NCBI GenBank assembly: GCA_022818135.1
Contig: JAFMSR010000009.1
Location: 18,695,853-18,759,852, forward strand
Reading direction: 5' to 3'
Length of the DNA: 64,000 bases
From: Saxidomus purpurata
Taxonomy: Eukaryota > Mollusca > Bivalvia > Venerida > Veneridae
Part shown: positions 14,301 through 62,984 of the stretch, one piece after another
Layout of the letters: every line of letters begins with the position of its first letter
Numbering within the stretch: the stretch's first letter is position 1
Program-made: the position numbers and the translations under genes
The notes under the pieces: model-generated
Told to the model about the DNA's origin: nothing
Databases searched by the model: none
The model's input: the letters and a program-made list of their open reading frames with translations, nothing else

Positions 14301-16060
14301 ATACAAAATGTAATAATAGCAATAATCATGAAAAGCGAAATATACTAGTAACAACATCAAAATTAAAAACAAATAAATAGACAGCTAGATACATTGCAGA
14401 CAGATAAAAAGGTTAGAATAATTACTAAAAGTACTGAATATTCATGTATGCATAGTCACTATCCGTTATTCATATAAAAATCTGGTGGAATTATGAAAAT
14501 GATTGTCCTAGCCTAAACTGATATAAATGAGCACAGATTACACTTAGTCTAGATTTACAGTGTATAGTGTTTCAAAATAAAGCCCATTAGGTAATACGTA
14601 TGTGTGATTCACAGGTTTTTTTTGACATAATAGGACGCTGCTCTGTAATGGACTACTATGGATATTGCATAAAGTCATAGATATATAAAAGATGGCTTTC
14701 ATGCATAATATAGGTAGTTTGTCAATGTATGTTGCAGTGGTAATAAATGTAATAAAGTTGATCTTACCCTTCGTTTAACAGGCTGTGAAATTGATCAATT
14801 AATGGTACATGTAGTGTCCACATTTTGAGATAGAAATGTCCATTTTTATGCCCCCGAAGGGCGGCATATTAAAATCGCACCGTCTGTCTGTCTGTCCGTC
14901 TGTCCGTCCGTCTGTGCGTCCCCACTTAAAAATTCGTGTCCGGACCGTAACTCTGTCATGCATTGAAGGATTTTAAAATAACTTGGCACACATGTCTAGC
15001 ACATCAAGACGACGTGTCGCGTGCAAGACCCACGTCCCTAGCTCAAAGGACAAGGTCACACTTGGAGTATGAAGTTTATGGAATCCTTTATATATGCACA
15101 CATTCGTGTCCGGACTGTAACTTTGTCATGCATTGAAGGATTTTAAAATAACTTGGCACAAATGTCTAGCACATCAAGACGACGTGTCGCGTGCAAGACC
15201 CACGTCCCTAGCTCAAAGGTCAAGGTCATACTTAGAGTTTGAAGGTAATGGATTCCTCTATATATGCATATATGCACACATTCGTGTCTGGACTGTAACT
15301 TTGTCATGCATTGAAGGATTTTAAAATAATTTGGCACAAATGTCTAGCACATCAAGCGGATGTGTTGCGTGCAAGACCAAAGTCCCTACCTCAAAGGTCA
15401 AGGTCACACTTAGTGTTTAAAGTAATGGAATACTGTATGCGTGGTTACTCTGTCATGCATGGAAGGATTTTAAAATGACATGGCACATTTATTGAGCACA
15501 TGGAGAGGACACATACTGAGGCACCTCTTTCGGGGGCATTCGTCACTTGTGAGGGACAGCTCTTGTTAAAAGTTACCAATGTACGGACTGATGCCGTTGA
15601 AAGGGGAAAAGAAGAATTAATTAATAGTGCAAATAGTCATAATGTCCATCTTATGAGAATCTAAGCATATAATCTGAAATGTCAGTATTATCTCTATATC
15701 TATGATTTTCAGCGTTCATACGGCTCTATTACTTGTTTTGCCGACATTTTGTCTGGTGGACATTTTAAAGAGGCATACCATACAAAACTCGAAATAACTT
15801 CGATCAATTCATTTTATCTGTCTTCAGTTCCAAGTAACACAAAGATCTACATAGGTGGTATAGGTACCGGTGGAAGAGCGGAAACGTTTAAGTGGGTCGA
15901 TGGTTCAACAATATCAGATGGATATACCAATTGGTACGGTGGTCAACCATACCCAGTTACTAATGAAGAACGGTATATTGAGATGATAAAGGAGTGGGGA
16001 CTCAGATGGAACGATGCAAAAGGTGTTTATCAAAAGTACAGTGTCTGTGAATTCGAATAA
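5017..16060 (+). CDS. Secreted PAN/apple plus C-type-lectin-domain protein (split gene, one exon missing)
   Basis: Exons seen: 5017-5329 (signal peptide and PAN-like cysteine-rich domain), 12076-12177 (linker, tentative), 14175-14262 and 15828-16060 (second half of a C-type lectin domain ending in a stop). Splice phases are compatible between exons 1 and 2 (phase 1) and between the two lectin exons (phase 1). Exon 2 ends in phase 1 while the 14175 exon starts in phase 0, so at least one further exon is needed. It should encode the start of the lectin fold, the conserved Cys and Trp before QHCEDLGGHL. I did not find it. Proteins of this design in molluscs are usually secreted recognition or adhesion proteins; ligand and role here are unknown. 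It is either an incompletely resolved gene or one that has lost an exon. Confidence 0.55.
5330..12075. other. Large intron, mostly featureless apart from a SINE
   Basis: About 6.7 kb of AT-rich sequence between exon 1 and the tentative exon 2. A 128-codon open frame at 6463-6849 has no recognisable domain and is probably chance. A short direct repeat (GTCAACGCCGGA twice) lies near 7090-7125. A SINE is at about 7282-7420. Nothing is supported from 7.6 to 12.0 kb. Confidence 0.4.
7282..7420 (+). repeat. tRNA-derived SINE head
   Basis: A Pol III box A-like segment (GGTGTAGAGGTTAAGG, near 7293) and a good box B (GGGTTCGAGCCCC, 7336-7348) lie at tRNA-like spacing. They are followed by non-tRNA sequence with AACTGTAAACTAAA repeats near 7450-7510. 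The acceptor stem does not close and there is no CCA-adjacent 3' end, so this is a retroposon head rather than a working tRNA gene. Confidence 0.65.
12076..12177 (+). CDS. Tentative exon 2 (linker) of the lectin-like gene
   Basis: A T-rich tract ending in ATTATAG precedes 12076. GACG|GTATTT gives a donor after 12177. The 102 bases keep phase 1 at both ends, matching exon 1. The 34 residues include AKYNFVSEEPDFDKENNQ and have no known domain. The acidic, asparagine-rich composition suits a linker. It could be a chance frame. A further in-phase stretch after an acceptor at about 12370 (DISSLLTTSSTPDDPNK) might be another linker exon but lacks a good donor. Confidence 0.35.
12716..12894. mobile_element. 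Pogo/Tigger-type MITE, 179 bp
   Basis: The ends are inverted copies: CAGTAAATTCC on the left and, reversed, CAGTAAACTCC on the right, each running on into ATATAACGA. Both are flanked by TA (12714-12715, 12895-12896). The interior has further CCGGATATAAGGAAC repeats. The CAGT start, TA duplication and lack of coding capacity fit a non-autonomous pogo-like element. It lies inside an intron of the lectin-like gene. Confidence 0.75.
12900..14174. other. Intron; the missing lectin exon should lie around here
   Basis: No splice-bounded exon with the expected first lectin cysteine and WxxA motif could be read on the plus strand. Sequence is AT-rich except for about 13840-13950. Confidence 0.35.
14175..14262 (+). 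CDS. Lectin exon A: middle of the C-type lectin domain
   Basis: The acceptor is TTGTAG before 14175, or CAG three bases later. The donor is TCAG|GTAAGAAA after 14262. It encodes QHCEDLGGHLLIITSEEENG followed by FIVPYLYAS. This matches the conserved lectin segment with the first half-cystine, GG.L..I and the S.EE.. motif. It starts in phase 0 and ends in phase 1, and joins exactly to the exon at 15828 (TCA-G|TT-CCA). Confidence 0.8.
14848..15572. repeat. Dispersed repeat with inverted TGCCCCCGAA ends and internal 170-178 bp units
   Basis: It starts TTTTATGCCCCCGAAGG and ends CTTTCGGGGGCATTCG plus the tail GACAGCTCTTGTT. After a CTGTCCGT-rich tract come units beginning ATTCGTGTC at 14932, 15102 and 15280 and a decayed one at about 15441. 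Each contains AACTTGGCACA and CAAGACCCACGTCCCTA. Open frames here are repeat translations. Related pieces are at 24559-24725 (left end) and 28262-28306 (right end). Confidence 0.85.
15828..16060 (+). CDS. Lectin exon B: C-terminal half of the C-type lectin domain and stop
   Basis: The acceptor TTTTATCTGTCTTCAG precedes 15828. The exon runs to TAA at 16058-16060 and encodes VPSNTKIYIGG, then FKWVDGSTISDGYTNWYGGQ, then GLRWNDAKGVYQKYSVCEFE. The WND and final VCE motifs and the W..G spacing are lectin hallmarks. Oddities: the two cysteines that normally form the inner disulphide are replaced (ERYIEM and NDAKGVY), and the sugar-binding EPN/QPD position reads GQP. Calcium-dependent sugar binding is therefore doubtful. 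An AATAAA at 16056-16061 overlaps the stop codon. Confidence 0.8.
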
Positions 16061-16383: not shown

Positions 16384-17930
16384 CAGCAAAACTAGAAACG
16401 TCCCTGTTTTATAGCCGGTGAAGCTTTGTCTGTGTAGTTGCTACATGTTCAATGTACATGTATTTTAAACTCTGGCGATCGTGTACAGTTTACGCGATAC
16501 GCACGGTTTACATATCGGCCAGTAACCAGAACGGTCATTTGCACGTTTTGCACGTGCATGCTATATATGTTGATTCAGTTCATGTCGTACCATTCATGCG
16601 ATAGGGGCTATTCTGAAAATTAAATTTTTTCTTTAATTTTTCACTGTTTTTCGATATGCCACAGCTTTCCGAAAACGAGCGAAATCAGGCAATTAGGATG
16701 CTTGCGGGTGGGGTGTCCGCCAGGGTAGTCGCGCGTCGGTTCGGGTGCTGTCGGAAGACGATTGATCGTCTTGCAGCCCGGTACCAGCAAACTGAGGCTG
16801 TTCACGACCGGCCGCGACCTGATAGGCCTCGTGTAACGACGGCTAGAGCCGATCGTTTCATTACGTTGACGCACTTACGTCAACGTCAATTGGAGGCCAC
16901 AGTCACTGCTAGGCAATACGGTGTCTCAGGGCAGACCATTCGCAACCGGTTGCGTCGTAACGCCCAACCAATCAGGGCACGCCGCCCGTACACTGGTCAG
17001 ATAATGACCCAACGTCACCGTGCTGCCAGGCTGTTATGGGCGCGACGTCATCTGAACTGGAGAAGGGCTGACTGGAACCGAGTTTTGTTCACCGATGAAT
17101 CTCGGTTCACAGTTAGTCATGCTGACGGAAGATTACGGGTATACAGGCGTAAAAATGAAAGATTCGCCGATTGTTGCATTGTTGAGAAAAACAGGTTTGG
17201 GGGAGGGAGCGTAATGATCTGGGATGGGATCATGGGAAACCGGAAGACATATTTGGTTGTTGTACAGGGCAACATTAATGCACAGCGTTATGTTGCAGAC
17301 GTGCTAAATGCATATGCCTTACCATTTATTCGCCAGCATGGTCCTGGTGTAACATTGATGCAGGACAATGCCCGCCCTCATGTAGCCAGGGTCACCACTC
17401 AATTCTTGCAGCAAAACAATGTCAACGTCATGCCATGGCCCGCGGTTTCCCCGGATCTCAACCCCATTGAGCACATATGGGATCAGCTGGGCCGCAAAGC
17501 ACGAGCTAACCATCAGATTGACAATGTTCGCGATCTTACACGGGCGTTACAACAGGAATGGAGGAATTTGCCCAACGCACTGGTATTGCGTTACGTTACG
17601 TCGATGCGGCGTAGGATCATTGCATGCATTCATGCAAATGGTGGCCACACTCGGTACTAACGAGATTTACTGGATGTGCCACATTTCTTATTGAAATTCC
17701 ATCTCTAAACATTCAATAACACCTTTCTGAGTTTTTGTGATTTTTGATTTTGACCCCTACCTCTCTTGACCGGTTATCTCTCGAAAATTTAACAAGATAG
17801 TCAGATGCAATTAATTGGTTTTAATACAGAAATGAATGAACTTGTTTTTCTATTTTGATTTATAAAAGTAACCCTTTTGGTTTTCGATAAATCTTTCCTG
17901 AAATATGGAGGGACGTTTCTATTTTTGCTG
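16384..17930 (+). mobile_element. Tc1-type transposon, 1.55 kb, apparently complete
   Basis: Terminal inverted repeats are 22 bp with one mismatch. The left starts CAGCAAAACTAGAAACG and the right, reversed, starts CAGCAAAAATAGAAACG; both end in TCCCT. TA dinucleotides lie beside both ends. Between them is one uninterrupted transposase gene. The element is clearly more GC-rich than its surroundings. It sits between the 3' ends of the two converging host genes. Confidence 0.92.
16656..17660 (+). CDS. Tc1/mariner-superfamily transposase (DD34E)
   Basis: This 334-residue protein is full length for a Tc1 transposase. Residues 1-110 hold two helix-turn-helix DNA-binding regions (LSENERNQAIRMLAGGVSAR onward, then TARQYGVSGQTIRNRLRR) separated by a basic DRPRPDRPR linker. 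The catalytic triad is visible: D147 in LFTDESRF, D237 in MQDNARPH and E272 in LNPIEHIWD, with 34 residues between the last two. A GGGSVMIWDGI box lies at about 182-192. There is no internal stop or frameshift. The start was chosen because the protein begins MPQLSENERNQ, normal for this family, and lies about 270 bp inside the left inverted repeat. Whether it is active cannot be told from one copy. Confidence 0.95.
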   Translation: MPQLSENERNQAIRMLAGGVSARVVARRFGCCRKTIDRLAARYQQTEAVHDRPRPDRPRVTTARADRFITLTHLRQRQLEATVTARQYGVSGQTIRNRLRRNAQPIRARRPYTGQIMTQRHRAARLLWARRHLNWRRADWNRVLFTDESRFTVSHADGRLRVYRRKNERFADCCIVEKNRFGGGSVMIWDGIMGNRKTYLVVVQGNINAQRYVADVLNAYALPFIRQHGPGVTLMQDNARPHVARVTTQFLQQNNVNVMPWPAVSPDLNPIEHIWDQLGRKARANHQIDNVRDLTRALQQEWRNLPNALVLRYVTSMRRRIIACIHANGGHTRY

Positions 17931-18815: not shown

Positions 18816-18972
<157 letters not shown>

Positions 18973-20035: not shown

Positions 20036-20535
20036 CTACGAAGTCAATCCGTTTATATCTTGTGAGATCACAGTCACTCTATCCAAAATTGTCTCCATTT
20101 CCTGAGTGTTTAAATGTTTTCCGAATTTCTGCATAAACCTATCGGGATGCCATCGAATCTTTTGTTCGCGTAAATAATTTTTTCCTTCTTCGGTTTCTGT
20201 ATCTACCCCATCAAAAAGAACGGATTTATCGTGTTCCTGTCCCTCTGTACTTGGCCATGCTATGTCAAGATAACCTAATATGGTGTCTTCATCAATGTCT
20301 AACTTATCAACCATCTTGGTAAATTCATTTTCATACTCCTGGCGTCGTTTAATGTTCATTTGTGTCTGCTGTATCCTGTTGCTTAACATTCTGTGCAAAT
20401 TAAACACAAACTCTTCAGCAAACAGATCGTCAGCACGCGTCTGTTCTTCCCTTCTTGGAGAATCAGTTTGCGGATTTTCTTCCGGATTTAAATGTACTCC
20501 TTCCGTGCTCGATTGGTAATTAGTTGCATGGAAAG
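20036..20535 (-). CDS. Last exon: cytoplasmic NFKBIL1/IkBL C-terminal-like domain
   Basis: The acceptor TTGTCTTATTTAG lies just above 20535 on the minus strand; the phase-1 join makes ACT (Thr) with the A left by the transmembrane exon. The next 165 residues are: an acidic, charged segment (1-40), a helical Arg/Glu-rich stretch with [12 protein letters not shown] (60-71), YLDIAWP (88-94), [17 protein letters not shown] (122-138) and [13 protein letters not shown] (149-161), then stop. The last three blocks correspond in order and spacing to the NFKBIL1 C-terminus as I remember it. HPD at 129-131 (codons at 20149-20141) also recalls the J-domain tripeptide, though this region is not a classical J domain. 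No ankyrin repeats precede it. Confidence 0.85.
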
Positions 20536-23500
20536 CTAAATAAGACAACGAATTAATTAAGGAATACAACAAAAACAGTGACGTAAATTCCGTTTATCAA
20601 CATACAGTTTTTTACTGAAATGAATTTACTGTTACAAAGTCATAAATGATTGACAGGGCTTACAAAACGACTGTGAACGTACATTGTATATGAAGTCGGC
20701 GAATTATGCTTATGCATATTAATCGATATCATGGAACTTCGTAAAGAAGACATATGTCTTAAACTAATATTATACTTACTCCTTTGTGATGAGGCTTTTA
20801 TGACAAAGAACAGCAACACAACAATGACAATCACGGCCAATCCTGCCTCAAATACCTGCAAAATGTGCATGAAACATTTGATTGAAAAACTTACTCACAT
20901 AGAGTTATTCAAAATGTATATATAATTATACCCGTTGAATATAACACAACAATAAATAATGCTGCGAAATCTGACTGACGAATTATTATATGCAGTCAGT
21001 TAAAAGGTAAAATCGAAGACGATAAATAGATCCAAATGACTTATTTACAATGGAAAACGTTTAAAGAAGGATTGTAGAAGATGCCTTCTTTCAGTATTGC
21101 ATTTCGATATTACTTTATCAAGCACCATGTAAAATATCTGTAAAATATGAGGAATAACAGTAGCACCATTTATTATAAAATCATTTGACGTATAGACTGC
21201 ATCGGAAAGCATTTATTAAACATTAACAAGAAAAAATGAGTTTAATAATTAAGAAATAAATGCGCCTTAAGTTTGTATTTTATCTTTGAATAAAATACAG
21301 TCAGGAGTTTGGATGCGTAGTTTGACTATTTTTCATATACGATACAACACAGGGACCTTTCTATTATGTCGATTATTACACAATATTACTCCGGACTATG
21401 ATCAGCGCGTAGCAACATTTCATTGTAATTTATAAACACTGGATGCGATTAGATTGCGTTTGAAAGCGTGCGTTATGTACCGCATGAGTTTCCCGTGGAA
21501 CACGTGATGTATTTTAGCGTTAAATAATGTACAGATACTTTTTTACTATATACTTATATTTATATAAGAAAAGTTGCGAATCGTGTTAGAAATGATGTTC
21601 TTATATGATCCACAAGAGCAACTTTATCTTGTCAAACACATATGTGTAATTTGTGCGACTTTTCGCTTACTACAATTTAATATCATACTTACAACATGAG
21701 CCCCCGAGAAAGATGAATGGCCCGTAGGTGGGTATTTTACCTCTGTATTTAAAACAAACAAAGCTTTTAAGAGGTGTGATATACATTTATGAGATGTATT
21801 ATACAAATATTCTACATAGACAGAATGGTTGCAAATTTTTTGAGATTATTCTAATTAGATTTGAACATTTAACATATTGTGATTTTTTTGACACAAATAA
21901 TGCGAATAAAATGGATATATAATGTATCCCCACATTCAGATAGTATAGCAAGAATCAAGTTAGGATAAAGTTAAATTTTGTAGTACAAAATGTTTGTATA
22001 AAATATTTTGATATCAACTTGTATGAATATTTTATCTTTCTTTTTACAAAGTAGATCTAGATCAAGGTATGCATATTCATACACCCTGTCATGTTAGCAC
22101 TGTGAACCACCTAATTTTAGCGTAAAACCTCTTATTATATTGAATTTTCTGAAGTTTTTCGCATGTTGAAGGTTTGCCACTATATCAGAATTGAAATTCC
22201 CGCAACCGAATTCAATTTGCTTAACAAAAATACCTAGCAAAACGGGAAAATTGATAGAAGCTACAATCAATTGGTTTACAGTATTAAAAATCATGTACTT
22301 CTTTGGCATCGTGTTCCTGTGAATCCACTGTCACAGATACACGTGTATTTGTTGACATCCTGAACACAGATTCCGTTCGTACAAGGATTTGAAGCGCATT
22401 CGTCAATATCTGAAACATAAAAACGTTCTTAAAATTTAAGTATACATGCATTCCGAAAAGAGATTTAACCCGTGCAAAAATCGGGTATGAAAGCTGAAAA
22501 ATATCAATCAGAAAAAAGAAAAATGAGGTTGCCAGATAAGAATATTATTTATCTTTCGTAGCCACTTTCTCAGTGTTTACTCTAGGCTTGATATAAAAAC
22601 ATTAATGGCACCTAAATTGATCTGATGCACATACAAATATATGAACGTATGAAATGTGAAAACAAAAACACATAGACGCATGTATATACAATGTATGATA
22701 TTTGTGTGCTTTCGTGCTTGCTCGTGATATCGCCTTTTAGTTTGCAGTTACCAATTTCACATCGTTTGCCTTGGTATCCACCCATGCATATACACTTGTA
22801 GCTATTAAGTCCATCTATACACTTTCCGCCATTCAAACAGCGATGATTTACACAGTCGTCAACGTCTAAAAAAATGAGAAGATACCAATAATGTGTTAGT
22901 AAGAAATAACGCCTTATACAGTCAAATGATACACGCTTAAAATACTAACACACAAATGTCATTGATCAATGGACAACAGCAGGCGAGCGTAGCAAAATTA
23001 TTTCAAAGCTGAAAACAAAAACGATGATTATCAAAACTATGTTTCCATTAATATAAATTCTAACTAGAAGTTAAAATATTTTAATTACGAGATCTGCGTC
23101 AACAAAAACAATATGTAGATACATATTTGCAAGACAGTCATACACAAAATGTTAGTGTTGCAAACAACTATAACAATTCAATGTGATACCGTGTAGAATC
23201 GTTTTCAGTGTACATCTTCAATGAAACATTACAGAAACTCTCCTATTTTGTTTTACACAATACCTTGGCAATTCTTTCCTTTAAATCCTTCCTGGCACTT
23301 ACAATAGTAACCGTTGTAAGTACCTGAACAGGTTGCCCTATTTAAACAAGGGTCCGAAACACATTTGTCTATTTCTGAAAGAATATGACAACAAGCATTT
23401 TGTTTCTAAAGTAAGAGACGTTAAAGAGTATTAATATATGACATAATGCATCAAACATTGCAACAAATATCTCTAAAATTTAATGATTACATGTACATGT

Positions 23501-26500
23501 TCCTGTCATATTTTGACCTGCCAAATGTACTATTTTAGAGTAAAAATGGGTTATAGTAAGAGGATAAGAAAATACAGGCATTTTACATTCACAAGAGTAA
23601 CGTGATACATTATATGATTACGACTTCGAATAAGAAAACATTACCCGACCCCCCACTTTTTTTTAAACATTACCCGAATAAATGACAAAAAAAGAGAAAA
23701 CATTACCCTTCCCGCACTGTGGTCCGCTATAACCTTTCTGACATACACAAGAATATCGATTGCTTCCATCTAAACATCTTCCATGAAAACATGGATTCGA
23801 GTGACATTCATCTAAATCTGTTAAACACATAACAAGATTTGTGAAAACACATACGATAAAAGTCACTGTGGGGAATCACGTGACTTTGTTTTGATAGACT
23901 TCACGGACAATGGCGGATGATAAACACCGGTAAGTGCCTGATTTTCGTACTTTTTCGTTCATATTACTTTCCACACATATTGATGATATTCAAGACATAT
24001 CCTATACCCTGGCCATTAAAATTCCGCGTGTTTTGGTTCCTTTCCCTCCGCTGAAGTATGCATAGATTGTTTGGAATGCATTCAAATGTAATCGTGGAAA
24101 AGAATTTTGTTTGGCTGAATTTCACGGACTATCTAGTATTTTTCCAAACAAAAGCATAAAAACTTACCATGTGACGTGTTTTTAGCCAAAATAAATGCTA
24201 GATATTATTGTTACATCGTATGGGTGTGAGCAGATTTCATTTCTTGAATTTTAAGGAATTATCACCATTTTGATAAAAATGCTAGATTACACGTGATACA
24301 ATTTTAGGCTAGATAACACGGCACTGGTATGATACACTACACGCATGAAATTATGTTGTACCTTTTCCGACATTCTGTGCATAATAATCTTGTGTAACAT
24401 ATGTATTTGTAAGACTCGTGGTTATTTTATGTATTCATTTAATTTAAATTCAATTTTAGATAGACAATTTGTAATTGTTTAGGCAGTTCAACTTCCAGGT
24501 AATAATAGATTAAACTGCTGTTTTAACGTTTTTCATCTTGGTTGATAGATGTCATCTTTTTATGCTCCCGAAGTCTGTCCGTCTGTATATCCTGCCTTAC
24601 ATTTCTTTGTGTCCGGGCTGTAACTTTGTCATTAATTGAAAGCTTTTGAAATAACTTGGCACAAATGTTCAGACGACGTGTCGCGTGCAAGAACTATGTC
24701 CCTACCTCAAAGGTCAAGGGTTTGAAGGTAATAGTCCAGGCTGTTGAAATTTTGACCCGGACAAAATTCATACAGAAATTATTTTTTGCATGCAGGCTGG
24801 AAATGGCTTGCTTAGGCACGAATCATAAAGTTCCCAAATAATTCAGGTCGGGAAAATGATTGTTGGGGCATTTTCTGCATTTTTTGATAATTTCATTGAA
24901 TTTCTGGAATACCCACATAACTCTGTAACCATTCAATCGATTTTCAAATTATTTTACAGGTATGTCCATCATTATTTGATGAACGCATACGCACATGAAT
25001 CTGGTAGTTAAATCAAAGGTCAATGTCAAATGAAGAGGTCAAAGGTCAAAAACGAGAACATTTCTACCATGAATTCATCATCTTTCATTTGCTATGTGCG
25101 CTCTTCCAACGAATGTGTCTTTAAGTATTTCACATTTTCTTTGTCCATCAAAACTGGACTGCCATGTTTGTTAAGTAATGGTAATACATATCTTCCATCT
25201 GACTGTCTATATGATGTAAGCCTGTAAAGTAGCGTCTTCTAAATCTTCAGTTACCCATTATAGTTTCTTTTAATTGTTTACATTCACTGTTTGTATTTAC
25301 TGGGATGGATCATGGGGGTGGGGATCCAAACTTCAGGTGACTGTGGCTATGTATTGTTTGTGAAATTAGTTTATTCACACTCTATTGTCATTATTTATAT
25401 CTCTAAGACCTTTCATAACTCTCTGAAAATACCAAGACATTCACATTCGCGATTTATCGTAATTTTGACTTCTCATAGTATATGATTTGTTTTAAATACA
25501 ACTGCTTTCAGTTTTTAAGAAGACGCTTTTTGGAGCCAGATTGGGCAATGTTACCAGCCTGGTTATGCACTGACCCTAGACGAACAATTTCGAGTACGAA
25601 ATAAAGTACGGGGATCAGTTATAGGTCACCAGCCTTATTTATAAGTAATGGACACTTTTTTAAGTATACCCCTGAAAGCAGTGAAAATGACCCCTATCTC
25701 ATGTTTATCAATCATAAAACTCTAAATTTGGCAACTCACCATTGTTTTTTATATAAAATGTTAAGCAATTGATCCTGTTTCACGAAACTACATGAATTGA
25801 GATTTCAAAATGTATTCAAACTGAAATAAAAATATAAAGAGAATTAGTTTCTGAAAAACAAAATGTAAAATTTGTAGTCATTTGTCAAAGTTTTTTTTCA
25901 TAATGTTCAAGCAATGAGAATTTTTTGCAGAAGAATTGTTCAAACATCACTTTATTGAAAACTAATTTAAAAATGATAGGTCACCAGCCTTTTTATTAAG
26001 AAAAATGAGCTGTTGTCTCGGGTGGGAGGGTGATGTTGGAGGGGAGGCCATGTGTATATTGCCACTGACGTAATACAAATCAAACCGCGATCAGGTAAAT
26101 CTCTCCTCTTTTCGGATTCAAAATTATATTTTTCTAGGCATGAAGGGAGACATGCCGGGGTCTCATCCAAAACATAAGTTAAAATTTAGCTTTTGGACGG
26201 ACTTTGATAAAATCTCTTTCAATTCAAATCAAAATATTTAGGGAGAACTAGGTCAATCACACTTAGATCTCATTGGTCGCCGTGATTGGCCTACTCTTTG
26301 GCAACCAATCAAATTCAACCTTGGGCTATACTGGCTGGAAATTGCAGTCAGGTAAATCTCTCCTATTTTGGAAACAGAAAAACACTTTTGATAGGTATAG
26401 GCATAATGGGAGACATGCCCAGGTCTCATCCACAAATTCAAGCTAACATATTTGCTCTTATGGACGGACCTTTATAAAATTTGCTTCAAATCAAATCAAA

Positions 26501-29500
26501 ACCGCGATCGTCTTTAAGAGATATCTGTTTCAGTTCCAGAGATATCTCTATTGCGTAACAAGATATCTTCCAAGAAATGATATCTCTTCTACTTACAGAG
26601 ATATCTCTGTCTCTGTACAGAAGATATATGTCTGTGGTACAAGGACACCTCTCAACGTGAAAAAGATATCATTATAAAAACGAAAGATGTCTCTTTGAAA
26701 TTAGAGAGATATCTTTTTTCAGAATAAATATTAAAATGGCTTGCGTGAAAAACGAATAGTGAACAAAATGTATTTTGACATGAATACAGACCGCTAATAG
26801 AATTAAATAGCTATTAGTTAACAGCACGAATTGTGTTCAGAAACATAAATATCATCGGATACTGAATGTTATTTTATATAATCGTGAAAAGAGTGAGGAA
26901 AAGGAATTGACACTGATGATTCTAGTGCCTGGAGGTTGCTTACCATTGATGTATACTCAGGGGCCCTAAGTCGATAACAAAAACATTTTTACACGTGTAT
27001 TTAAAAGTCGGGTGGAACAATACACTTCTGTATTCGTACATCAATGAATTTCAAAGTCTGCCAACTTTGAGTCGACTTTAAATAAATGAATTGAATTGAA
27101 TGTTTGCTTTGATCTGACTGACTGTTCAAAAGCTACTCATTAAGCCACGGATGATATCTTCGTAATCAAACTAACATATTTCTTATAAAATTAAGCAAAC
27201 ACCACACCTGAAGTCGTGATTCAACTTAATCGAAAACTCGGTGAATCATGCAAGTATTATGTTCACTGTGTATTTCACAAACCATAGCATAAAAGCGTGT
27301 TTCACTTATGTTTTCAACGTGTTTGTCATGAATCATAAGACTTAAAATAATCAAGCGAATAAGCTTGAGCGGTTTTCAAAAGAAGTGCAGACTATGAATT
27401 TACATAACGATGTTAGCAATGACATGCGGAAAAATAATTATTTTGTCACCTGCCAATTTAGTTGGTGAGAATTTTACACTAATAGAAATTATCCAAGCGA
27501 ATAAAATTCAAATTTGCGTACAAGGATATCTTATTGATACAATCTCATGCATTTGCAAGTAAAAATATTTGCCACATTGAAGACGAATGTGGTTATCATT
27601 ATTAATTGGGATATGCATGAAATAAAATGCAATATTTATTTGAAATTTGCAAAAAGCGTACTTTCGCATACATCACCGTCCTAAAATAGTGTGTTATTAT
27701 TAGTTACTTCAGTCTGCACATTTTCATCTCTGCCCGGGAATTAATCAAAACATTTGACAAAACCAAAAAAATGGCTAAAAACTACATATTTTACGTAAAA
27801 CGACAAAAATAAAGTGTTATGTCAAGTTAAAGAGAATTAATAAAGTATCATCACGCCTTGAATGCCAAGTCCAAAAACTAGGTTTTAATGAATATTGCCA
27901 ATTATATGTATATAATCAGTTAATTTCATAATAAAACGTAACTCCCTGTTACATAATTTTGAAAATTAGTTTCACGCATTTTTATATAACGTATGTTAAA
28001 GAAAATGCGTAGAACACCTATAACATATTCGTAGAGACTATAATATATCCCGTAAGCAAATGTACATTAATTTTGATCAAGAAAACACTTGGAAAATTAA
28101 AGTGTTTTTTTTTCAGAAGAAACAGGCATGAATACAATTAGGACACCATTGTAACGCAACATTTTAAGTTAAGAAAATATATTTTGAAAGAAGGGTAGCC
28201 TGAGGGAATATTAAAACTCAAACAGTTTTCCAACATGGCGAAGACACAGACAGTGAGACACTTCTTTACGGGGCATTCGTCACTTGTGAGAGACAGCTCT
28301 TGTTTTTTTATTAAACAATAAAGGACTCTTTACATGTGTACTCGCAATTACATATGAAATCAAATTATACATACATATCATATCAGATTTTTATTGTCTA
28401 TAAATATCTATTTCTATAAATAACATTAATGTACTTGCTTCACCTTTATATGTTCACGGTTTTCTTATTTTAATATTTTCGACTCTTTATACGGTTTTTA
28501 AAACAAAATATATACTTTAAAACCATATATACTGTCGCAAACGATATTAAACAGTTTACCATTTTCTAAGACACAATTGTGTGAGATGCGATCCTTACTG
28601 ATAGTTCGATTTTTGCGACTATATACGTTATTTACCCACGCAAATTTGAACGACATTAGCAACCTGGAATGGTGATTAGTGCGTTAGAATTGTATATGAC
28701 TGTCTTCGTTCCTCACTATTCACTATATCTGACATTTATTTGACAGTGTTTTGACCCTAACAGTAGCTTCAATTGCATATTGGCCCAAGTTACTTTTCTT
28801 TATTGTGATTTCTGATCATGGGAAGACATAAAACTAATTAGAGTCTGAAAAGGCAAAAAAATCCATACAAGAAAAATAAGATCATCTGTTCCTACAACGG
28901 AACAACTATGTGGAAAGCGAATACTGACCAAACACCCATAAAGTCGCCGATTCGGCAGTCACTTCAATCGCCAGATAGTTTATAATTCAATTTATCAAGA
29001 TGTCAGTTAAAGGACCACAGTAAAGAATCAATTTGTCATGGGCCACAAAGTTATGATAAGATACTACGTGATGACGAGTGTCTGTCAGATACCCATGAAA
29101 CTTCGCACTGTGTCATTTAAGAAATAGCAAACATTTCATGCTTTATTAACTGCACCATACATTAGTATGCATGATACTTATCGCTTCTGTGAAGTATCAT
29201 TAAAATTAATTCTGATCAGAGATGAGCAAAGAATTTGAAAGAGCCCTGTGACATTGACCTTTGACCAAGTGACCGGAAACATTGACCGTGCACAACTGTT
29301 GATGGCACTTAACACTTTTGCGAATATCATGAAATTGTGTCCAGGGGTTGAATAGATTACAAGTACAGAAGAATTAACTATCTCGAGCCCCTGTGACCTT
29401 GCCATTTAACCTAATGACCCGAAACACGGATCATACACAATAAGATATGGTACTTATTACTTTTGCGAATGCCTTAATGACTTTTGTTCAGTATCTTTAA

Positions 29501-32203
29501 GTTATTACCAGGGACTTTGGACATTAACCGTCCACATGATTTAACTAGCAAGTGTGCTATACCAGTTCCGTGTAATCTAGCCTAAAATTGTATCACGTGT
29601 AATCTAGCATTTTTATCAAAATGGTGATAATTCCTTAAAATTCAAGAAATGAAATCTGCTCACACCCATACGATGTAAAGAGAATATTTTGCATTAATTT
29701 TGGCTAAAAATACACGTCACATGATAAGGTTTTATGCCTTTGTTTGGAAAAATACTAGATAGTCCGTGAAATTTAGCCAAACAAAATTCTTTTCCACGAT
29801 TACATTTGAATGCATTCCAAACAATCTATGCATACTTCAGCGGAGGGAAAGGAACCAAATTACGCGGAATTTTAATGGCCAGGGTATAGGATATGTCTTG
29901 AATATCATCAATATGTGTGGAAAGTAATATGAACGAAAAAGTACGAAAATCAGGCACTTACCGGTGTTTATCATCCGCCATTGTCCGTGAAGTCTATCAA
30001 AACAAAGTCACGTGATTCTCCACAGTGAAAGTACCTTATCACACATATGTTCAATTAGAACGGATTTTAGAGAAGTATTGGGTTTCGTTTTTAGTCTTTA
30101 TCACTTAAAAGGTACTTGGATGTTTATAAGTACCAAATCTCGTCATCATTCATGTTTATAAAGGCTTTAACAGCTCTGTAAATCATGTGCCTAAATTATT
30201 AAAGTTATAAATATATCGTATTTATTATTTAGGGGTAGGTCTTAATACTTGTAGATTAATTACGCAGTACAACCAAACACTTGCAATAAAAACGGAAACC
30301 TGTATGAACCAAAAAATCGTATAAATTCAAAATCAAATTATCTGTACTACAACAACGTATCCTTATATCAACCCCCCCCCCACACACAAAAAGCACAAAA
30401 TGTAAAATTTCACCTTTTTAATGGAACGTTTTACCTGTTTGACACCTGTCCCCTCCAAAGCCATTGTGACATTCACACCTGTACTCGCCGATACCATTGT
30501 AACAACGAGCTCCGTTAAGGCAATGACCTGATGCACACTCATCAATATCTTAAAAAGATGTGATAAAAATTTCAAAAGTTTTATTCCATAAGTTATTTTT
30601 TTAATCAGCTAACCGTGATTGTATATGAATATAAAGTTTAAATTGATATAAATACAGTAAGAATAACCGAAAACACATAACCTGCAAGAAAGTCGTGGCC
30701 CTATCTGACTTGTTCAAAATGTGTACCAATATTTCACAGAATACGTGATATATTGCCCATAGTCCTAAACTTAAGTGATATTTTGAGATAACTTTGTCGC
30801 CATACATGTTATGTTAAACCCTTTTACCAAATGTGTTTTTCAATCGCGAGTGACAGAGGAAACCAAAGAAGTAGTGTAACGCAATTAACAACAGGACAAA
30901 ATTACCTTTCTTTAAGTCAATAATTGTACAACTAAAAGTGAAACGAGTATACACCAATAACGTTTGTGTAATTACAGTTCTGTAGACTAATTGCTCACAA
31001 ACTAGGACCAGAAAGACAAGCATGGTCTTTCATAAAACCAGACTAACTTGTAATGTGTAAGGCACTTACCTGTTTGACACCTTGCTCCAGTGTAACCATA
31101 TAGGCACCTGCATACATAACTATCACCACTTACGTCACAGATTGCATCGTTGAAGCAAGGGTTTGGGACACACTTACTGCTCACTTAAATTCATGGAAAA
31201 TCTATGTTTTAATATTTGAATCACGTAGGCAGAGTTGTAATAAAATTGCATTCGTATTTGTAAACACTCAACTTGATTTACTGTTTGCCGTGATGTCACC
31301 TTAGATCTCCGATGGGAAGTAACAATCTTTGTACATCAGCGTCTTATCGTTATTGGTTCTTCAATGATTTTAAAATTTCGAAACGTTCTAAATATTTATG
31401 ATCTGCACATACCCGGTATTCATATCGAAATACCTTTTTAAAATGAATGACGATTTTATGTGAATTAAATTGTCAAAACCAGTATAACAGAACGTTTTTA
31501 CATATCTTGAAATCCGCTTTAAGTTAAGCAGTCGTGATTCGTTTATTTAAATCTCTTACTTAAGTGTCGTTTCAACTAAAATTTCTTTAGATTTCAAACG
31601 ATCGAAAATGACATACCAGAACGCAGAAAATACAGACGACTGAGCCATGACCTATCACTAGAAATAGTGCAATAACAATCAATTTAAGTGACATATACAT
31701 GGAACGAAAATAGTTTTGACCTTGACATTTACTATCTAAGTGTAAATATATAATTTAGAAATAAAATATAAACAACTATCCGTGTATTTATCGGGTCAGG
31801 TTACTCTCGTACGAGAAAAATTGATATTACAGTAGGTGTTGAAGTCGCATTATATCGCTATCCATGCTGTTTTAAAGGTTATAAACATGATCCACTTGTC
31901 ATTGCAATCGTTGTTAACTTTTGTGTACTCTTTATACAAATATCTGCTTCGTCACGGTATCGTAAAGCTACCTGAAATGCGTGATATATATTTCAAATCT
32001 TTATCGCGGACGTTGAACTGGATACGATATTTGGATATTTGCCCGATAAATAATATACACTTTCAAAATAATTGATACATACCATTTAGTGGCTGATTTG
32101 GTTTAATTATTGTTTCATTGGCAAGTATGAATCGGTCGAGTGTAGAAAGCAGAAGAAAAGTAATAAGTCCTCTTTGATGAAATAAGCGACATTCTTTTCT
32201 ATC
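20036..32203 (-). CDS. EGF-repeat single-pass membrane protein with NFKBIL1-like cytoplasmic domain
   Basis: Ten exons on the minus strand join with matching phases: 32203-32083, 31183-31070, 30548-30435, 23817-23707, 23374-23264, 22865-22752, 22409-22299, 21742-21693, 20855-20780 and 20535-20036. The order is hydrophobic leader, six EGF domains (several with the D-[ILV]-D-[DE]-C calcium-binding start), a 17-residue stalk, a transmembrane helix and a 166-residue tail ending in a stop. The product is about 470 residues plus an unfound first coding exon. The tail resembles the C-terminal region of NFKBIL1, a nuclear protein that normally carries ankyrin repeats; here the ankyrins are absent and the region would face the cytoplasm. 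EGF ectodomains bind ligands or partner proteins, so a receptor role is plausible but inferred. Without the inserted 6.16 kb transposon, the EGF2-EGF3 intron would be only about 450 bp, like the other introns. Confidence 0.8.
20780..20855 (-). CDS. Transmembrane exon
   Basis: It is bounded by TTTTGCAG and by AGGA|GTAAGTAT. It encodes VFEAG, then [15 protein letters not shown], then ASSQR. This is one membrane-spanning helix followed by a short basic stop-transfer sequence. Phase is 0 at entry and 1 at exit. The other two frames contain stops, so the assignment is firm. Orientation with EGF domains outside and the IkBL-like tail inside follows from the leader exon and the Lys/Arg after the helix. 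Confidence 0.85.
21693..21742 (-). CDS. Stalk exon, 50 nt
   Basis: A 50-base exon bounded by AATACAG and GTT|GTAAGTATG. Entered in phase 1 and left in phase 0, it supplies [16 protein letters not shown]. It is exactly what is needed to join the phase-1 EGF exons to the phase-0 transmembrane exon. It is short and has no domain. It was inferred from phase logic and good splice sites. Confidence 0.65.
22299..22409 (-). CDS. EGF6 exon, calcium-binding type
   Basis: 37 codons, phase 1 at both ends. Sequence pattern: [28 protein letters not shown] and RCQR. All six EGF cysteines are present. The donor is GAA|GTACAT, weaker than its neighbours. Confidence 0.85.
22752..22865 (-). CDS. EGF5 exon, calcium-binding type
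   Basis: 38 codons, phase 1 at both ends. Sequence pattern: [33 protein letters not shown]. Six cysteines. A broken relative of this exon is at 62659-62767. Confidence 0.9.
23264..23374 (-). CDS. EGF4 exon
   Basis: 37 codons, phase 1 at both ends, acceptor TTCTTTCAG. Sequence pattern: [32 protein letters not shown]. Six cysteines. Confidence 0.88.
23707..23817 (-). CDS. EGF3 exon, calcium-binding type
   Basis: 37 codons, phase 1 at both ends. Sequence pattern: [31 protein letters not shown]. Six cysteines. The inserted 6.16 kb transposon begins only 47 bases upstream of this exon's acceptor. A broken relative is at 62985-63087. Confidence 0.9.
24559..24725. repeat. Left-end fragment of the 14.8 kb repeat family
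   Basis: TTTTTATGCTCCCGAAG, a CTGTCCGTCTG tract, TAACTTTGTCAT, ATAACTTGGCACAAATG and GACGTGTCGCGTGCAAG follow the order of the element at 14848. Its possible partner, the right end, is at 28262-28306. Confidence 0.75.
24726..26080. other. Transposon interior, no gene
   Basis: AT-rich with no recognisable protein. AGGTCACCAGCC occurs near 25625 and 25978, suggesting old internal duplication. Confidence 0.4.
26085..26510. repeat. Diverged direct duplication, about 170 bp units
   Basis: CAGGTAAATCTCTCCT, then GGGAGACATGCC, GTCTCATCCA, GGACGGAC and TCAAATCAAAA appear in the same order at 26093-26235 and again at 26348-26500. Confidence 0.75.
26520..26713. repeat. GATATC palindrome array with 21-22 bp period
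   Basis: Perfect GATATC at 26520, 26541, 26562, 26579, 26600, 26665 and 26708, with near-matches GATATA at 26623 and GATGTC at 26686. Nine of ten positions on a roughly 21-22 bp grid are filled, most within an AGAGATATCTCT context. It is either a decayed 21-bp minisatellite or an array of phased protein-binding sites. Confidence 0.8.
26714..28260. other. Transposon interior, no gene
   Basis: AT-rich sequence with no coding or repeat structure I can support. Confidence 0.4.
28262..28306. repeat. Right-end fragment of the 14.8 kb repeat family
   Basis: GGGGCATTCGTCACTTGTG followed by GACAGCTCTTGTT matches 15533-15570 almost base for base. Confidence 0.8.
29240..29530. repeat. Two diverged units with GTGACC...GACCNNAAAC motif
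   Basis: CCCTGTGACATTGACCTTTG...GTGACCGGAAACATTGACC and CCCCTGTGACCTTGCC...ATGACCCGAAACACGGATC are about 170 bp apart and share following CACTTTTGCGAAT-type sequence. It is an old dispersed repeat rather than a gene. Confidence 0.55.
30435..30548 (-). CDS. EGF2 exon, calcium-binding type
   Basis: 38 codons, phase 1 at both ends. Sequence pattern: [32 protein letters not shown]. Six cysteines. Donor CAG|GTAAAAC. Confidence 0.9.
31070..31183 (-). CDS. EGF1 exon
   Basis: 38 codons, phase 1 at both ends. Sequence pattern: [32 protein letters not shown]. Six cysteines. The D-x-D-E calcium motif before the first cysteine is replaced by SSK, so this one may not bind calcium. Donor CAG|GTAAGTGC is strong. 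Confidence 0.85.
32083..32203 (-). CDS. Leader exon with hydrophobic signal segment
   Basis: Bounded by TTTATTTTAG and AATG|GTATGTAT; 121 bases, phase 0 in and phase 1 out, matching EGF1. It encodes a basic start ([12 protein letters not shown]), a hydrophobic core ([16 protein letters not shown]) and [12 protein letters not shown]. This looks like a signal peptide with cleavage after ILA. There is no Met in this frame and a TAG sits just above the acceptor, so the initiator must be in an upstream exon I could not identify. Confidence 0.6.
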
Positions 32204-32209
32204 CTAAAA

Positions 32210-33190
32210 TAAAACAGGTAAAAAAAACTGATATATTATTATGTTCGGTCTACTGCAAAAACACAGAAAAGGGATCCTGTTTTAACTGATGTAGGGCACA
32301 ACTAAAGTCTTACTTAGATAAACAGTAAGGATAGACAACTGTGACATAATTGCTCTGCTCTAATAAGCACAATTGCAAACACTTCGACAAAACCTTTAAA
32401 ATGAATGATAAAGATTTGTATAAACATATCGGTTGCCCTTCAAATCAAATTCTTTCCAGATTGTCTCAATATCTGTATATGACACTTACAAGTTTACTTA
32501 TTTTTCAAATAAATAGTGCTTCTAACTATATCTTTATTTACAGTTTGCCCATACTTTCTGAGCCAATCGCCTGCTCCAGTTTCATGAAATTTACATTCTG
32601 ACTTAGACAGTATCTACAATATGAAATTTCACTATGACAGTGACATGATTATCAGAAAAAAGCCCTGTCTTCAATCTTTAATACGTGTGATTTAAATGCA
32701 AACATCCCTGTAAGCCGGTTATAGGTCGTTCATAAATAGGTAGGTAGAAATGTATATTAACACGGTTATAAACAGTTCATATATCACAGTTAAACATACT
32801 ACATTATTTAAATGACACGAAATAAAAATATAAAAATAGCGATGATGATAAGACAACATTGATCAGTGGAGAAGATGATTTAAAACACATTATACACCGT
32901 GGATAACACAAACAAGAGATACAAAGTTTCCCTTATCTCCATAGCGGTGTGTCTAGACATAGAGAGGCATGATGTTTGAACACATTTAATTTATGTGACA
33001 CTAAAATCAAAGCAATCACAATGGAGATCAGGTAACAGATAATAGATAATCATAATGTTAAAAATCTATTATTAAGTCTGACACAACAAACGTATATGTG
33101 AAATTCACTGCTGATGACATCATTCATTTCTACATTCATAATTGCCTTTTTATTCTAATATCTATACAATGTATACAGTTCTTGTCAGAA
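32210..33190. other. Presumed 5' region of the EGF/IkBL-tail gene
   Basis: It should contain the missing first coding exon and the promoter. One minus-strand ATG near 32594 is followed by potential donors, but none gives the required phase 0. Otherwise AT-rich and featureless. Confidence 0.3.
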
Positions 33191-33335
33191 ATTTAAACAA
33201 GAGGGCCATGATGGCCCTGTATCGCTCACCTGTCTACCATTGGCAAAAATAAAAGGTTATTAATAGCAGAAAGGATCAATTTTTACCTTTGGCTCATGAT
33301 ATCCTCTTAATAAGCCTATGTAAAATCAAAAGATT

Positions 33336-33722
33336 TGCTGTCTGATCATGATCTGCACTTTCATTATTTTGCTGTCTGATCATAATCTGCATTGTAAGCT
33401 ATTCATTATTTTGCTGTCTGATCATAATCTGCACTTTCATTATTTAGCTGTCTGATCATGATCTGCACTTTCATTATTTTGCTGTCTGATCATGATCTGC
33501 ACTTTCATTATTTTGCTGTCTGATCATGATCTGCACTGTAAGCTATTCATTATTTTGCTGTCTGATCATGATCTGCACTGTAAGCTATTCATTATTTTGC
33601 TATCTGATCATGATCTGCACTGTAAGCTTTTCATTATTTTGCTGTCTGATCATGATCTGCACTGTAAGCTATTCATTATTTTGCTGTCTGATCATGATCT
33701 GCACTGTGAGCTATTCAGTTTT
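33336..33722. repeat. Minisatellite, 10 units of about 35 or 45 bp
   Basis: Ten units contain GCTGTCTGATCATGATCTGC or a one- or two-base variant. Units ending CACTTTCATTATTTT are about 35 bp; those ending CACTGTAAGCTATTCATTA are about 45 bp. Open frames of 66 and 130 codons here are repeat translations. Confidence 0.95.
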
Positions 33723-34457
33723 TTAACAATTTATGGTACTTTCCAAAGTGATAGATGGAAGAGTACATATTCTTTTATGATATGCATAGGCATATTTGTA
33801 TTTGATAAATCTGATATCTTCCTATATGTTTTGTATATATCAAATATTGATTTAATTTTATATATGAACTTTCTTGTGATGTGAATGTAAAAATTACAAC
33901 TACATTTTTTGTACCAAAATCTTTAACATGGAAGTTCAACTAGGGGTCAAGAACATGTATTGCATCATCGCTATTTAAATCTTTATATAAGTGCCAATTT
34001 TAGGCAAGAGTTTTTATATTGCTTGGTTTATGGGAAGTTTTCTTAAATATTGAGTATGAAGGTCTTTTCCTACTGTATTGAACAGAGCACATATTGACTG
34101 CATATCTACTGCACCTGTCAATAATCGTCATTTTCGAACAAAATAAACACTTTAAAATAATTACTTTCAATTATATATCCCTACTATTCTGACACTTCAT
34201 TAACTAGTCTGTGGAGTCGGAACAGCGGAAATAATAAAAATAAAATGTCAGTTCATAATGTTATTGTTATTTTACCTTTCCAAAAAATAGGACAGGCAGT
34301 CGCATAAACCAAGAGATATAAAACTCTGGCCTTACCATAGAGAGATCCAAGATGTGTACTGATTACAAGACAAATGTCATTTATCAATCTTATGGTGTTA
34401 AAATACTGCAATAAAATTAGCAAATGAGGTGTTCAATAAACAACACATTATTAAAAC

Positions 34458-35200
34458 TAGAAATCATCGAAACAACCTTTCTGACAAATTTCAAGGATAT
34501 CTGGGCTGAAAATGTAACATCTAGAGTGTTAACAAGGGTTTTCCATATTTTGGCTCTGTGACCTAGTTTTTGACCCCAGATGACCCATATTCGAACTTGG
34601 GCTAGAAATCATCGAAACAACCTTTCTGACATATTTCCAGGATATTTGGGCTGAAAATGTTACCTCTACAGTGTTAACAAGGTTTTTCCATATTCAGGCT
34701 GTGTGACCTAGATTTTGACCCCAGATTACCCATATTCGAACTTGAGCTAGAAATCATCGAAACAACCTTTCTGACATATTTCCAGGATATTTGGGCTGAA
34801 AATGTTACCTCTAGAGTGTTAACAAGGTTTTTCCATATTTGGGCTGTGTGACCTAGTTTTTGACCCCAGATGACCCATATTCGAACTTGGGCTAGAAATC
34901 ATCGAAACAACCTTTCTGACATATTTCCAGGATATTTGGGCTGAAAATGTTACCTCTACAGTGTTAACAAGGTTTTTCCATATTTGGGCTGTGTGACCTA
35001 GTTTTTGACCCCAGGTGACCCATATTCGAACTTGAGCTAGAAATCAACCAAACAACCTTTCTGACAAATTGCCAGGATATTTGGACTGAAACAGTAGCCT
35101 CTAGAGCCTTAACAAGATTTTTCTATTTTTGGGTCATGTGACCTAGTTTTTCATCCGAGATGACCCATATTCGAACTCGTCCGAGTAATTACTGGGACAA
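34458..35200. repeat. Minisatellite, five 145 bp units plus a partial
   Basis: TAGAAATCATCGAAACAACC starts units at 34458, 34603, 34748 and 34893; a diverged form starts at 35038. The spacing is exactly 145 bp each time. Later units are more diverged. Confidence 0.95.
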
Positions 35201-35344
35201 ACATCCTGACCAAGTTTCGTGACAACTGAGGAAAAAAATGTGACCACTAGAGTGTTAACGAACTAAATGTGGACGGACGACGGACGACGGACATTCATCG
35301 ATCCTAATAGCTCACCCTGAGCCAGCTCAGGTGAGCTAAAAAGT

Positions 35345-36440
35345 CAGGATCAGAGGGTCTGGAGGGGACATTTCGAGTCGCAAAGCGGTTGTAAATGATC
35401 TTATCAAGTACAGCAAACGATTTCTTTGTTTTAAGTCCATAATAGGCTTATATTTTATATCATTAATACAAACAGACCATTCATAGTTCAACACTCCTGC
35501 GAGATAGGATTTTATTATCCCCGTAACCGATTAAATGGTGATCAAAGAGCAACTCTATACTAACCCTATCAACTTGATTTCAAACAAAGCATATAATTTA
35601 TCTATACTAACATTGTAATTCAATTTTGTTAAATATTATTCGTATATGTAAACGGACTAGACAATACATTACACTCATATCTATCTATAATAAACATATT
35701 TGTTATATCTAAAGAAATTTCAAGATTGAATTGAAAGGCATTGCTATATAATTATATGTATTATGTTTAATCAAAGCGTGTATAAATGTGAAAAAATACA
35801 TGTTTGATTGTATCAAGCACAGAAAACTTTACACAATACCATATGTTTTATATTTTTCTTGAGCCGATTGTGTATAGCATAACACTTCCTTCTCAACCAA
35901 TCAGGGATGGTTTAACTTCTTCTATTTTACATAAAAAATAAGTATCTCTTAAACTCTAGACATAAGATGTAATTTCACAGCTGATACCAAAATGAAAGTT
36001 TTACTATTCAAGAGAAGGCTTTTATAATTATGTTTAAATTCTAGAAATGCATTGAAACTTTATCAGTGAAGTAGTATTTTATCGGAATTAACATGACGAT
36101 TAATATAAATATTAACATAATCGATCGCATTTGTGAACAGTCGTTTCTCATTCTTAGGTTTCACGCAGCATTTTATGTAACCTAGTTGTCAATATGTTTA
36201 TAAATGTACTTCTTCCAAATAAGTTAAAACGAGCGGTAAGATCGATACTTATTCAAAGTTTGGTTAGTTTATTGATCACTATAAATGTTTGCTAATTTAT
36301 TTATTCCCGATTGCAAAACTATTTCTTACAACTTATATTAATCGCTCCCGAGACTAACTCCAGATAGAATAAACCTCGAAATGAGAGATAGGCAATGTGG
36401 AATTATCTGTGTCTTACCTAAGAACACTACCACTACAATG
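35345..36440. other. No gene seen
   Basis: AT-rich intergenic DNA with no supported feature. Confidence 0.4.
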
Positions 36441-36523
36441 TATTTGGGCATTTGTGAGGATCGTACCAGAGACCCTCCTCCGGTCCTGAGGTTGATGCAG
36501 TAACCACTGTACCAAGGCGTCTC
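36441..36523 (-). repeat. tRNA-like SINE head (copy 1)
   Basis: On the minus strand GACGCCTTGGTACAGTGGTTA resembles box A and GGTACGATCC a damaged box B. Copy 2 at 40961-41038 keeps the intact GGTTCGATTC. Confidence 0.6.
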
Positions 36524-37656
36524 CATCTTTAGTTTATTGTTTACTAATAGTGAAAATCTAGTATACCATAAAATAAAAAAACTTACAAACCTTGACAAAA
36601 TTGTTTTAATTTCTTCTAGGAAATCTAAGACGATCGAAATGAAGTCCTTTCCTCGGTTCATAATAAAAAGTTTAAGTTATCTTAAAAAGATGCATACCAG
36701 ATCTACTCACTGTCAGATTAAGAGTAAGGGATACCTTAACATATTGACATGAAAACTCATTCATTCTTGTGAAAATCAAATACAGCAATGAAGGATATCT
36801 GTGTATTTCTCGATTAAATGTACTTTCGATTTAAACCTGTGTTATATTGCGTTTCATATACGTATTAAAAGATATTGAACGATTTTCTTTTGAAACCCAT
36901 TATTGTTGGTTCGAATAAGAAAAGCCTTTTCCTGAAGATTTATATGATAATCGTTTAGTTAAAAAAACCAATATAAATGTTTGGAACTATTCATTTCATA
37001 TGTACCCATCACTAATCTAGAATTTCATGTTTTATAATTAAAAACAATTGATTGGAATGTGTCAGCACAAATGATTGGCTTTCAAGTGCGAAATAATGCC
37101 TTAAACATCATAAATCACGGAAATAATAATCGTTTTGTAGTATATCTAATTAGTCAAAATGGATAACACTTACATGTAATGTATTCTCCATTATCTTAAA
37201 CCCTTTTCGAACAACCAGTATTGTGTAATAAATTTTACATTAATTATTTGGTAATATATTACAAGTTTATTACCAGCGTCGGATCCCGCGGTCTATACGG
37301 AATACACCGTGGGAAAATTCATAAATGGTGTGAATAACCTGGGTACCGAGGATGGTTTATTACATCCGAGAAAAGGACGTTACACATGTTCAGACTCTAC
37401 ACATTCCAATATCATTGCACATTAGGATCGAGAGTTAGAGTCGTATTGCTATACGTATACCTCCAATTGAAATTGAATCTAATGAGCAAAAGCTTTATCC
37501 ATCTTTTCGATTCATCAATACACCCGCATTGAAAAAAGTTGTGTTTGAATTATAACATAAGTTACAAAGAGAGTGCACGTAAATCTTCTTCCTATCTCAT
37601 AAAATAGGTTTATGAGTCATGATAGCCAAGCAAGATAATAAGAATATTTCACTGGT

Positions 37657-37774
37657 TGCACGTGCAGATCGGAATATCTGGTTCGAGGGTAACTGTTTTG
37701 GCGGTAACGAGGCTCCGCCGAGTTATCGCCAAAAACAGTTACCCATGAGCTGCACGTGCAGCCAGATATATATT
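37657..37774. repeat. Hairpin repeat (copy 3 of 3)
   Basis: GCACGTGCAG and CTGCACGTGC pair at the outside, GGGTAACTG and CAGTTACCC further in, around GAGGCTCCGCCGAG. Confidence 0.8.
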
Positions 37775-37949
37775 CTGTTTTTTTTTGCATACCATATTCT
37801 ACTAATAGTAGCAGAAATAAAAGAAAACTAATGAATTGTATTTACGCGGTATTTTCTTGTAGTGATGCACAAAGTTACATATTCATTCATAAAAGTAGTT
37901 CTTTCTGACGTCAATAAGTCGTCTTACACCAAGGGGTGTAAGATGGGGT

Positions 37950-38385
37950 TTTCTGGCATACCAGATGGGGATAACTGCAGATTTTACCAGTGCAGTCCAT
38001 GTAAGACGATTCGCGTGAATTACTTGTGACGTAACGTTATAAACAATGTGACGTCACTTTACGAAACACAGCATCTGTATAACGTTTGTTTTTAAATTAA
38101 AATGCATCATTTCGATAAGTTTGTAATTAAATATTTATTTTAAAGTGCAAGACGGTATGCAAGAAAAAGTTTCTACCATGAGATACTTGGTTCAGATGGA
38201 AATATCCGTCACTTTGGGTAACTGTTTCACGGGAACTCGGCAGAGCCTCGTTCCCGCCAAAACAGTTACCCGCAGTGACGGATATTTTCATCCGAACTGC
38301 GTGCTCATGTAAGAAACTAATATTCCAGCACTGGTAAAAACTGGTAAAAACTGCAGATATCCTGATCTGGTATGCAAGAAAAGCG
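37950..38385. mobile_element. MITE-like unit containing hairpin copy 2
   Basis: The left arm GGCATACCAGATGGGGATAA (from about 37955) is inverted at about 38345-38380 (ATCCTGATCTGGTATGC). Both arms continue into GCAGATTTTACCAGTGC or its complement. The internal hairpin at 38199-38288 has the same core as 2601-2688. Copy 2 of the duplication holds only one arm at this position. Confidence 0.7.
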
Positions 38386-45653: not shown

Positions 45654-45655
45654 TA

Positions 45656-51181: not shown

Positions 51182-51183
51182 TA

Positions 51184-56600: not shown

Positions 56601-56604
56601 CGTA

Positions 56605-62051: not shown

Positions 62052-62053
62052 TA

Positions 62054-62655: not shown

Positions 62656-62658
62656 TCC

Positions 62659-62767: not shown

Positions 62768-62984
62768 CTTAAATAATGCACACTAACGATTTTTTGCCCG
62801 GCTGTAGGCAATTTGAAATAAAATGATTACGTGTCAAATGTTAACCTGCAAGATGTACAGTATTGACTAGGCAAAAAACAATTTAGTACAATAACGGGAT
62901 AAGGAGCATAAATATCTCACAATGAATGTAGTTACGAGGTATGCTAAATAATTGAAATTTAGGCATTAAATAAGAGCACATTAT

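Follow-up and report, generated by a model that had tools for sequence, protein, structure and literature searches.

Within a 64,000-nucleotide stretch of Saxidomus purpurata contig JAFMSR010000009.1 (the window), we examined a minus-strand gene, running from 32203 to 20036, that is predicted to encode a membrane protein with six EGF domains and a cytoplasmic tail resembling the C-terminus of NFKBIL1. The ten exons with consistent phases that an earlier note on this DNA had listed could be rebuilt: they join into a single open frame, 1,422 nt long, that encodes 473 residues and closes with the only in-frame stop, and all nine introns have GT-AG ends. The six EGF exons are phase 1 on both sides, the stalk joins the transmembrane exon in phase 0, and the transmembrane exon joins the tail in phase 1. 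Phase also fixes the acceptor of exon 2 as TTTAAG; an alternative AG at most five codons' length downstream would break it. The fused EGF-transmembrane-tail gene as modelled is very probably correct. Intron 3 contains two inverted copies (23863-24338 and 29551-30028) that are 95.8% alike over 478 bases and are probably a non-autonomous transposon.

The leader described in the earlier note was recovered in part: exon 1 does encode a hydrophobic stretch, which is weak, and the start codon lies outside the listed exons. No ATG occurs in the frame of exon 1, and a TAG in that frame stands directly before its acceptor on the 32203 side, so the start must come from a further 5' exon. A simple scan of 32204-40000 returned eight phase-0 ATG...GT candidates for such an exon, none of them favoured. 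The listed exons supply no start methionine, and the putative signal peptide was judged by hydropathy.

Six EGF domains, a stalk, a transmembrane helix and a 166-residue tail, all proposed previously, were borne out by Pfam, hydropathy and the joined frame. Searching the whole model against Pfam with a limit of E 1 gave 11 families, of which the last two are weak matches at chance level. EGF (PF00008) covered six stretches (E 6.2e-38), the array being typed as tandem EGF/hEGF/EGF_CA domains, and residues 41-265 contain 36 cysteines, as tandem six-cysteine EGF domains do. By consensus motif, D(I/L/V)D(E/D)C of the calcium-binding type opens four of the six repeats, the Asx-hydroxylation consensus occurs in three, CxSx(P/A)C for O-glucose in three and the O-fucose consensus in one; two N-glycosylation sequons both lie ahead of the first EGF domain. 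A single transmembrane helix follows the array at residues 283-301, with a Kyte-Doolittle value of 3.06 over 19 residues; elsewhere, hydropathy exceeds 1.0 only in the leader (1.08-1.16).

Tandem EGF domains and one membrane helix are features that the model has in common with Notch, Delta/Jagged, Crumbs and MEGF types, and the symmetric phase 1-1 EGF exons are a further likeness. Particular families of EGF membrane proteins are marked by DSL, LNR or laminin-G domains. The model differs from Notch, Delta/Jagged, Crumbs and MEGF proteins in that Pfam, at E 1 or below, lists none of these three domains for it, and in a tail that matches no Pfam family. At 62642-63101, EGF exons 6 and 4 recur as decayed copies in the same order and on the same strand, with internal stops (80% identity over 142 aligned bases for exon 6 and 75% over 145 for exon 4); this segment is what is left of a related EGF gene.

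The tail consists of 166 complete residues encoded by one exon, is acidic (33 D+E, 19 K+R) and has no cysteine. We compared it with human NFKBIL1, using a sequence that was not drawn from a database. BLASTP aligned the tail with the human C-terminus at 60 bits and 28 of 79 residues identical, and the Smith-Waterman score against the whole of NFKBIL1 was 135, whereas 2,000 shuffles gave a mean of 34.1 (s.d. 5.5) and a maximum of 70. With RWHPDRF masked, the score was 78 against a maximum of 59 in 2,000 shuffles; the likeness thus does not rest on that heptad alone. YLDIAWP of the tail aligns with FGDVPWP, RWHPDRF is identical in both proteins, and a 13-residue segment of the tail aligns with VMGAVTALSQALN. 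The three landmarks, in general form (F/Y)xDxxWP, RWHPDRF and an SQxxN end, therefore stand in the order that the earlier note had read from the NFKBIL1 C-terminus. Judged from these alignments, the tail is in all likelihood homologous to that region. The proteins diverge upstream, where NFKBIL1/IkBL has an ankyrin half and the model instead has its leader, six EGF domains and membrane helix.

A Pfam search of the tail had been proposed earlier as a check on this relationship. Neither the tail nor its 87-residue core matched a family, and neither did the human NFKBIL1 C-terminus used for the comparison; the scan is silent on the tail because the human region itself is without a family, which makes it inapplicable as a refuting test. 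PDB sequence searches found no solved structure of the NFKBIL1 C-terminus. Scans for relatives, in two collections without animal genomes, gave 30 pattern matches in prokaryote contigs and 2 in viral contigs, none of which was confirmed, as is to be expected of such collections; they yielded no second gene with this architecture. Plain NFKBIL1 is reported from oyster transcriptome and genome data (PMC4892480).

Table. Exons of the EGF-NFKBIL1-like gene model, listed in order of transcription
Feature	Positions	Strand	Basis
Exon 1, leader-like stretch, without start codon	32083..32203	-	joined frame, hydropathy
Exon 2, EGF domain 1	31070..31183	-	joined frame, Pfam
Exon 3, EGF domain 2, calcium-binding type DIDEC	30435..30548	-	joined frame, Pfam, motif scan
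Exon 4, EGF domain 3, calcium-binding type DLDEC	23707..23817	-	joined frame, Pfam, motif scan
Exon 5, EGF domain 4	23264..23374	-	joined frame, Pfam
Exon 6, EGF domain 5, calcium-binding type DVDDC	22752..22865	-	joined frame, Pfam, motif scan
Exon 7, EGF domain 6, calcium-binding type DIDEC	22299..22409	-	joined frame, Pfam, motif scan
Exon 8, short stalk	21693..21742	-	joined frame
Exon 9, transmembrane helix and stop-transfer residues	20780..20855	-	joined frame, Kyte-Doolittle
Exon 10, 166-residue cytoplasmic tail, NFKBIL1 C-terminus-like, then stop codon	20036..20535	-	joined frame, BLASTP, Smith-Waterman

Several other features surround the gene. A plus-strand frame at 15749-16060 encodes the end of a C-type lectin domain (Lectin_C, E 2e-05, Pfam) and possibly represents a lectin gene just downstream of the 3' end of the EGF gene. 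An intact-looking frame of 334 residues for a Tc1-like transposase lies at 16656-17660 (DDE_3, E 7e-16; HTH_Tnp_Tc3_2, E 1.4e-07; Pfam), and the frame at 5017-5448 matched no Pfam family. At 18818-18971, 53 CA repeats are followed by a C-rich run, and these give rise to spurious long open frames on both strands. A direct duplication of about 5.5 kb (45654-51183 and 56603-62053) is 95% alike at a spacing of about 10.9 kb, and a tRNA-Gln (ttg) is called in each copy (positions 47311 and 58235).

Whether the EGF exons and the tail belong to one gene depends on the junction between exons 9 and 10. The intron between them measures only 244 nt, begins with the donor GTAAGT and ends at the acceptor TTATTTAG in the required phase. 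If there were two genes, the EGF-transmembrane gene would end elsewhere, and directly downstream of it the tail exon would form part of an NFKBIL1-like gene of its own or of a retrocopied fragment; the tail is indeed a single 500-nt exon, as expected of a retrocopied 3' end, and the Mets at tail residues 50, 60, 75, 135 and 147 offer possible starts for a truncated product in which the conserved core is kept. Traced upstream, however, the tail frame is closed by a stop within the intron and offers no Met before residue 50, so that such a product would lose tail residues 1-49. In addition, the membrane exon ends in a donor and therefore needs another exon, and tblastn of the tail and the EGF part over the window found no second tail copy. 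A good acceptor in the right phase this close to a GTAAGT donor makes a single gene the simpler reading compared with a separate gene starting at Met 50, and we regard two genes as quite unlikely. It is also highly improbable that the joining is a recent, non-functional event in one genome, whether an artefact of assembly or splicing or a copy in decay. The surroundings are full of transposable and duplicated DNA and include the decayed EGF exon copies described above, which would suit such an event, but the ten exons are open in frame with intact splice sites, and the tail has kept NFKBIL1-like residues that decay would erase. The following points nevertheless weigh against the single gene with its NFKBIL1-like tail. 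The gene is a prediction from genomic sequence, a point that at the joint between exons 9 and 10 counts in favour of two genes. The donors of exons 4, 5 and 7 (GTAATG, GTATTG and GTACAT) are weaker than the others, no AATAAA occurs until about 1.4 kb past the stop, and the start exon falls outside the ten-exon model. The leader is weak, with a Kyte-Doolittle peak of 1.16 over 19 residues. For the tail, the same holds of the comparison sequence, which was not drawn from a database, the empty Pfam result and the low-confidence structure models considered below.

NFKBIL1 was named IkB-like for its ankyrin repeats, and ankyrin repeats define IkB proteins; a 2013 report by An et al. is said to concern NFKBIL1 and splicing. 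No ankyrin family is present among the 11 families found for the whole model at E up to 1. With these repeats missing, the anatomy lends no support to a coupling to NF-kB, and the model lacks the means by which proteins of the IkB class bind REL/NF-kB. We therefore set aside inhibition of NF-kB by the tail. A 2013 review (PMC3639191) describes IkBL as nuclear and as reducing TNF-alpha and IL-6 expression, and states that no REL partner even of human IkBL had been identified by then. The NF-kB coupling suggested in the earlier note is thus not supported; its EGF-transmembrane model with a last exon related to the NFKBIL1 C-terminus is.

Two other roles for the tail were weighed. In one, the tail would be freed by membrane proteolysis, in the manner of Notch, and would then act in the nucleus like NFKBIL1. 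An EGF array followed by one helix and by a tail whose relative, NFKBIL1/IkBL, is nuclear (PMC3639191) would fit such a release, as would the O-glucose and O-fucose consensus sites, which recall Notch-like repeats. Against it, neither the Notch-type negative regulatory region nor other Notch domains appear in the Pfam list at E up to 1, ankyrin repeats are absent, and both the cleavage site and the nuclear signal are putative, and we hold nuclear release to be very unlikely. In the other, the tail would be a working J-like domain that uses its HPD motif to bring in Hsc70 and stimulate it at the membrane, with the receptor remodelling protein complexes or endocytic coats; auxilin and cysteine-string protein are J-domain proteins that act on Hsc70 at membranes. 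HPD is retained in the tail (protein residues 437-439) and is preceded by basic residues. Searched against the PDB, a two-sequence profile and the 87-residue tail core each matched a single chain, the Hsp40 type II J domain 6rzy (E 0.14 and 0.32, respectively), which also headed the six matches of the human C-terminus used here (E 1.2); HPD was in register each time and, for the tail, a helix-like stretch after it aligned as well. Flank shuffles that kept WHPDR in place reached the score obtained against the printed stretch of 6rzy in 57 of 5,000 cases, although that chain had been chosen as the best match. An AF2 model of the core placed helices at 37-45, 52-59 and 65-82 around HPD (51-53) at low confidence. 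However, all E-values for 6rzy, including 0.14 and 0.32, are insignificant, and with the whole tail as query this chain came fourth among five matches (E 1.1). A comparison with an E. coli DnaJ J domain, whose sequence was likewise not drawn from a database, showed no signal past the motif: 2,676 of 5,000 shuffles scored equally well, and BLASTP found seven residues only. No DnaJ family appeared in the Pfam lists for the tail, the core or the whole model, the single-sequence models were poor (mean pLDDT 58.6 and 58.2), and their Foldseek/VIA matches included no J domain. The tail may descend from a J domain; that it is a working J-like domain appears unlikely.

On balance, we think it probable that the locus encodes a type I EGF membrane protein that carries an NFKBIL1 C-terminal-like tail without ankyrin repeats, which would dock the partners of that region at the membrane. 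Its exons, EGF domains, helix and tail similarity are read from the sequence; from these we infer a partner, a ligand and a pathway. The gene was probably made by exon joining, in which an EGF-transmembrane gene would have been joined to the last exon of NFKBIL1 or to a copy of that exon. The EGF array may bind a ligand or a neighbouring cell, which would make the protein one of surface adhesion or recognition, and the tail would gather at the membrane whatever the NFKBIL1 C-terminal domain binds. If the kept HPD motif is a guide, such a partner could be a chaperone of the Hsp70 class. Docking of NFKBIL1-type partners by the tail, taken by itself, is a tentative proposal that we consider somewhat doubtful. 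That the protein founds a new receptor class, in which an EGF ectodomain is coupled to an NFKBIL1-type, J-like tail and ligand binding recruits Hsc70-class or splicing/NFKBIL1 machinery, seems less likely still.

The pairing of EGF domains with an NFKBIL1-like tail looks unusual. Searches of the open-licence PMC literature, which is only part of what is in print, yielded no EGF-NFKBIL1 protein and nothing that links NFKBIL1 with a J domain. A protein that keeps the NFKBIL1 C-terminus without the ankyrin half would show that this region is an independent domain, and would offer a simple setting in which to look for its binding partners. Were a new receptor class to prove true, the NFKBIL1 C-terminal domain would turn out to be a portable module, for signalling or as a chaperone, that evolution has carried from a nuclear protein into one at the membrane. 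Conservation of the architecture in related animals would also make it a candidate class of surface receptor.

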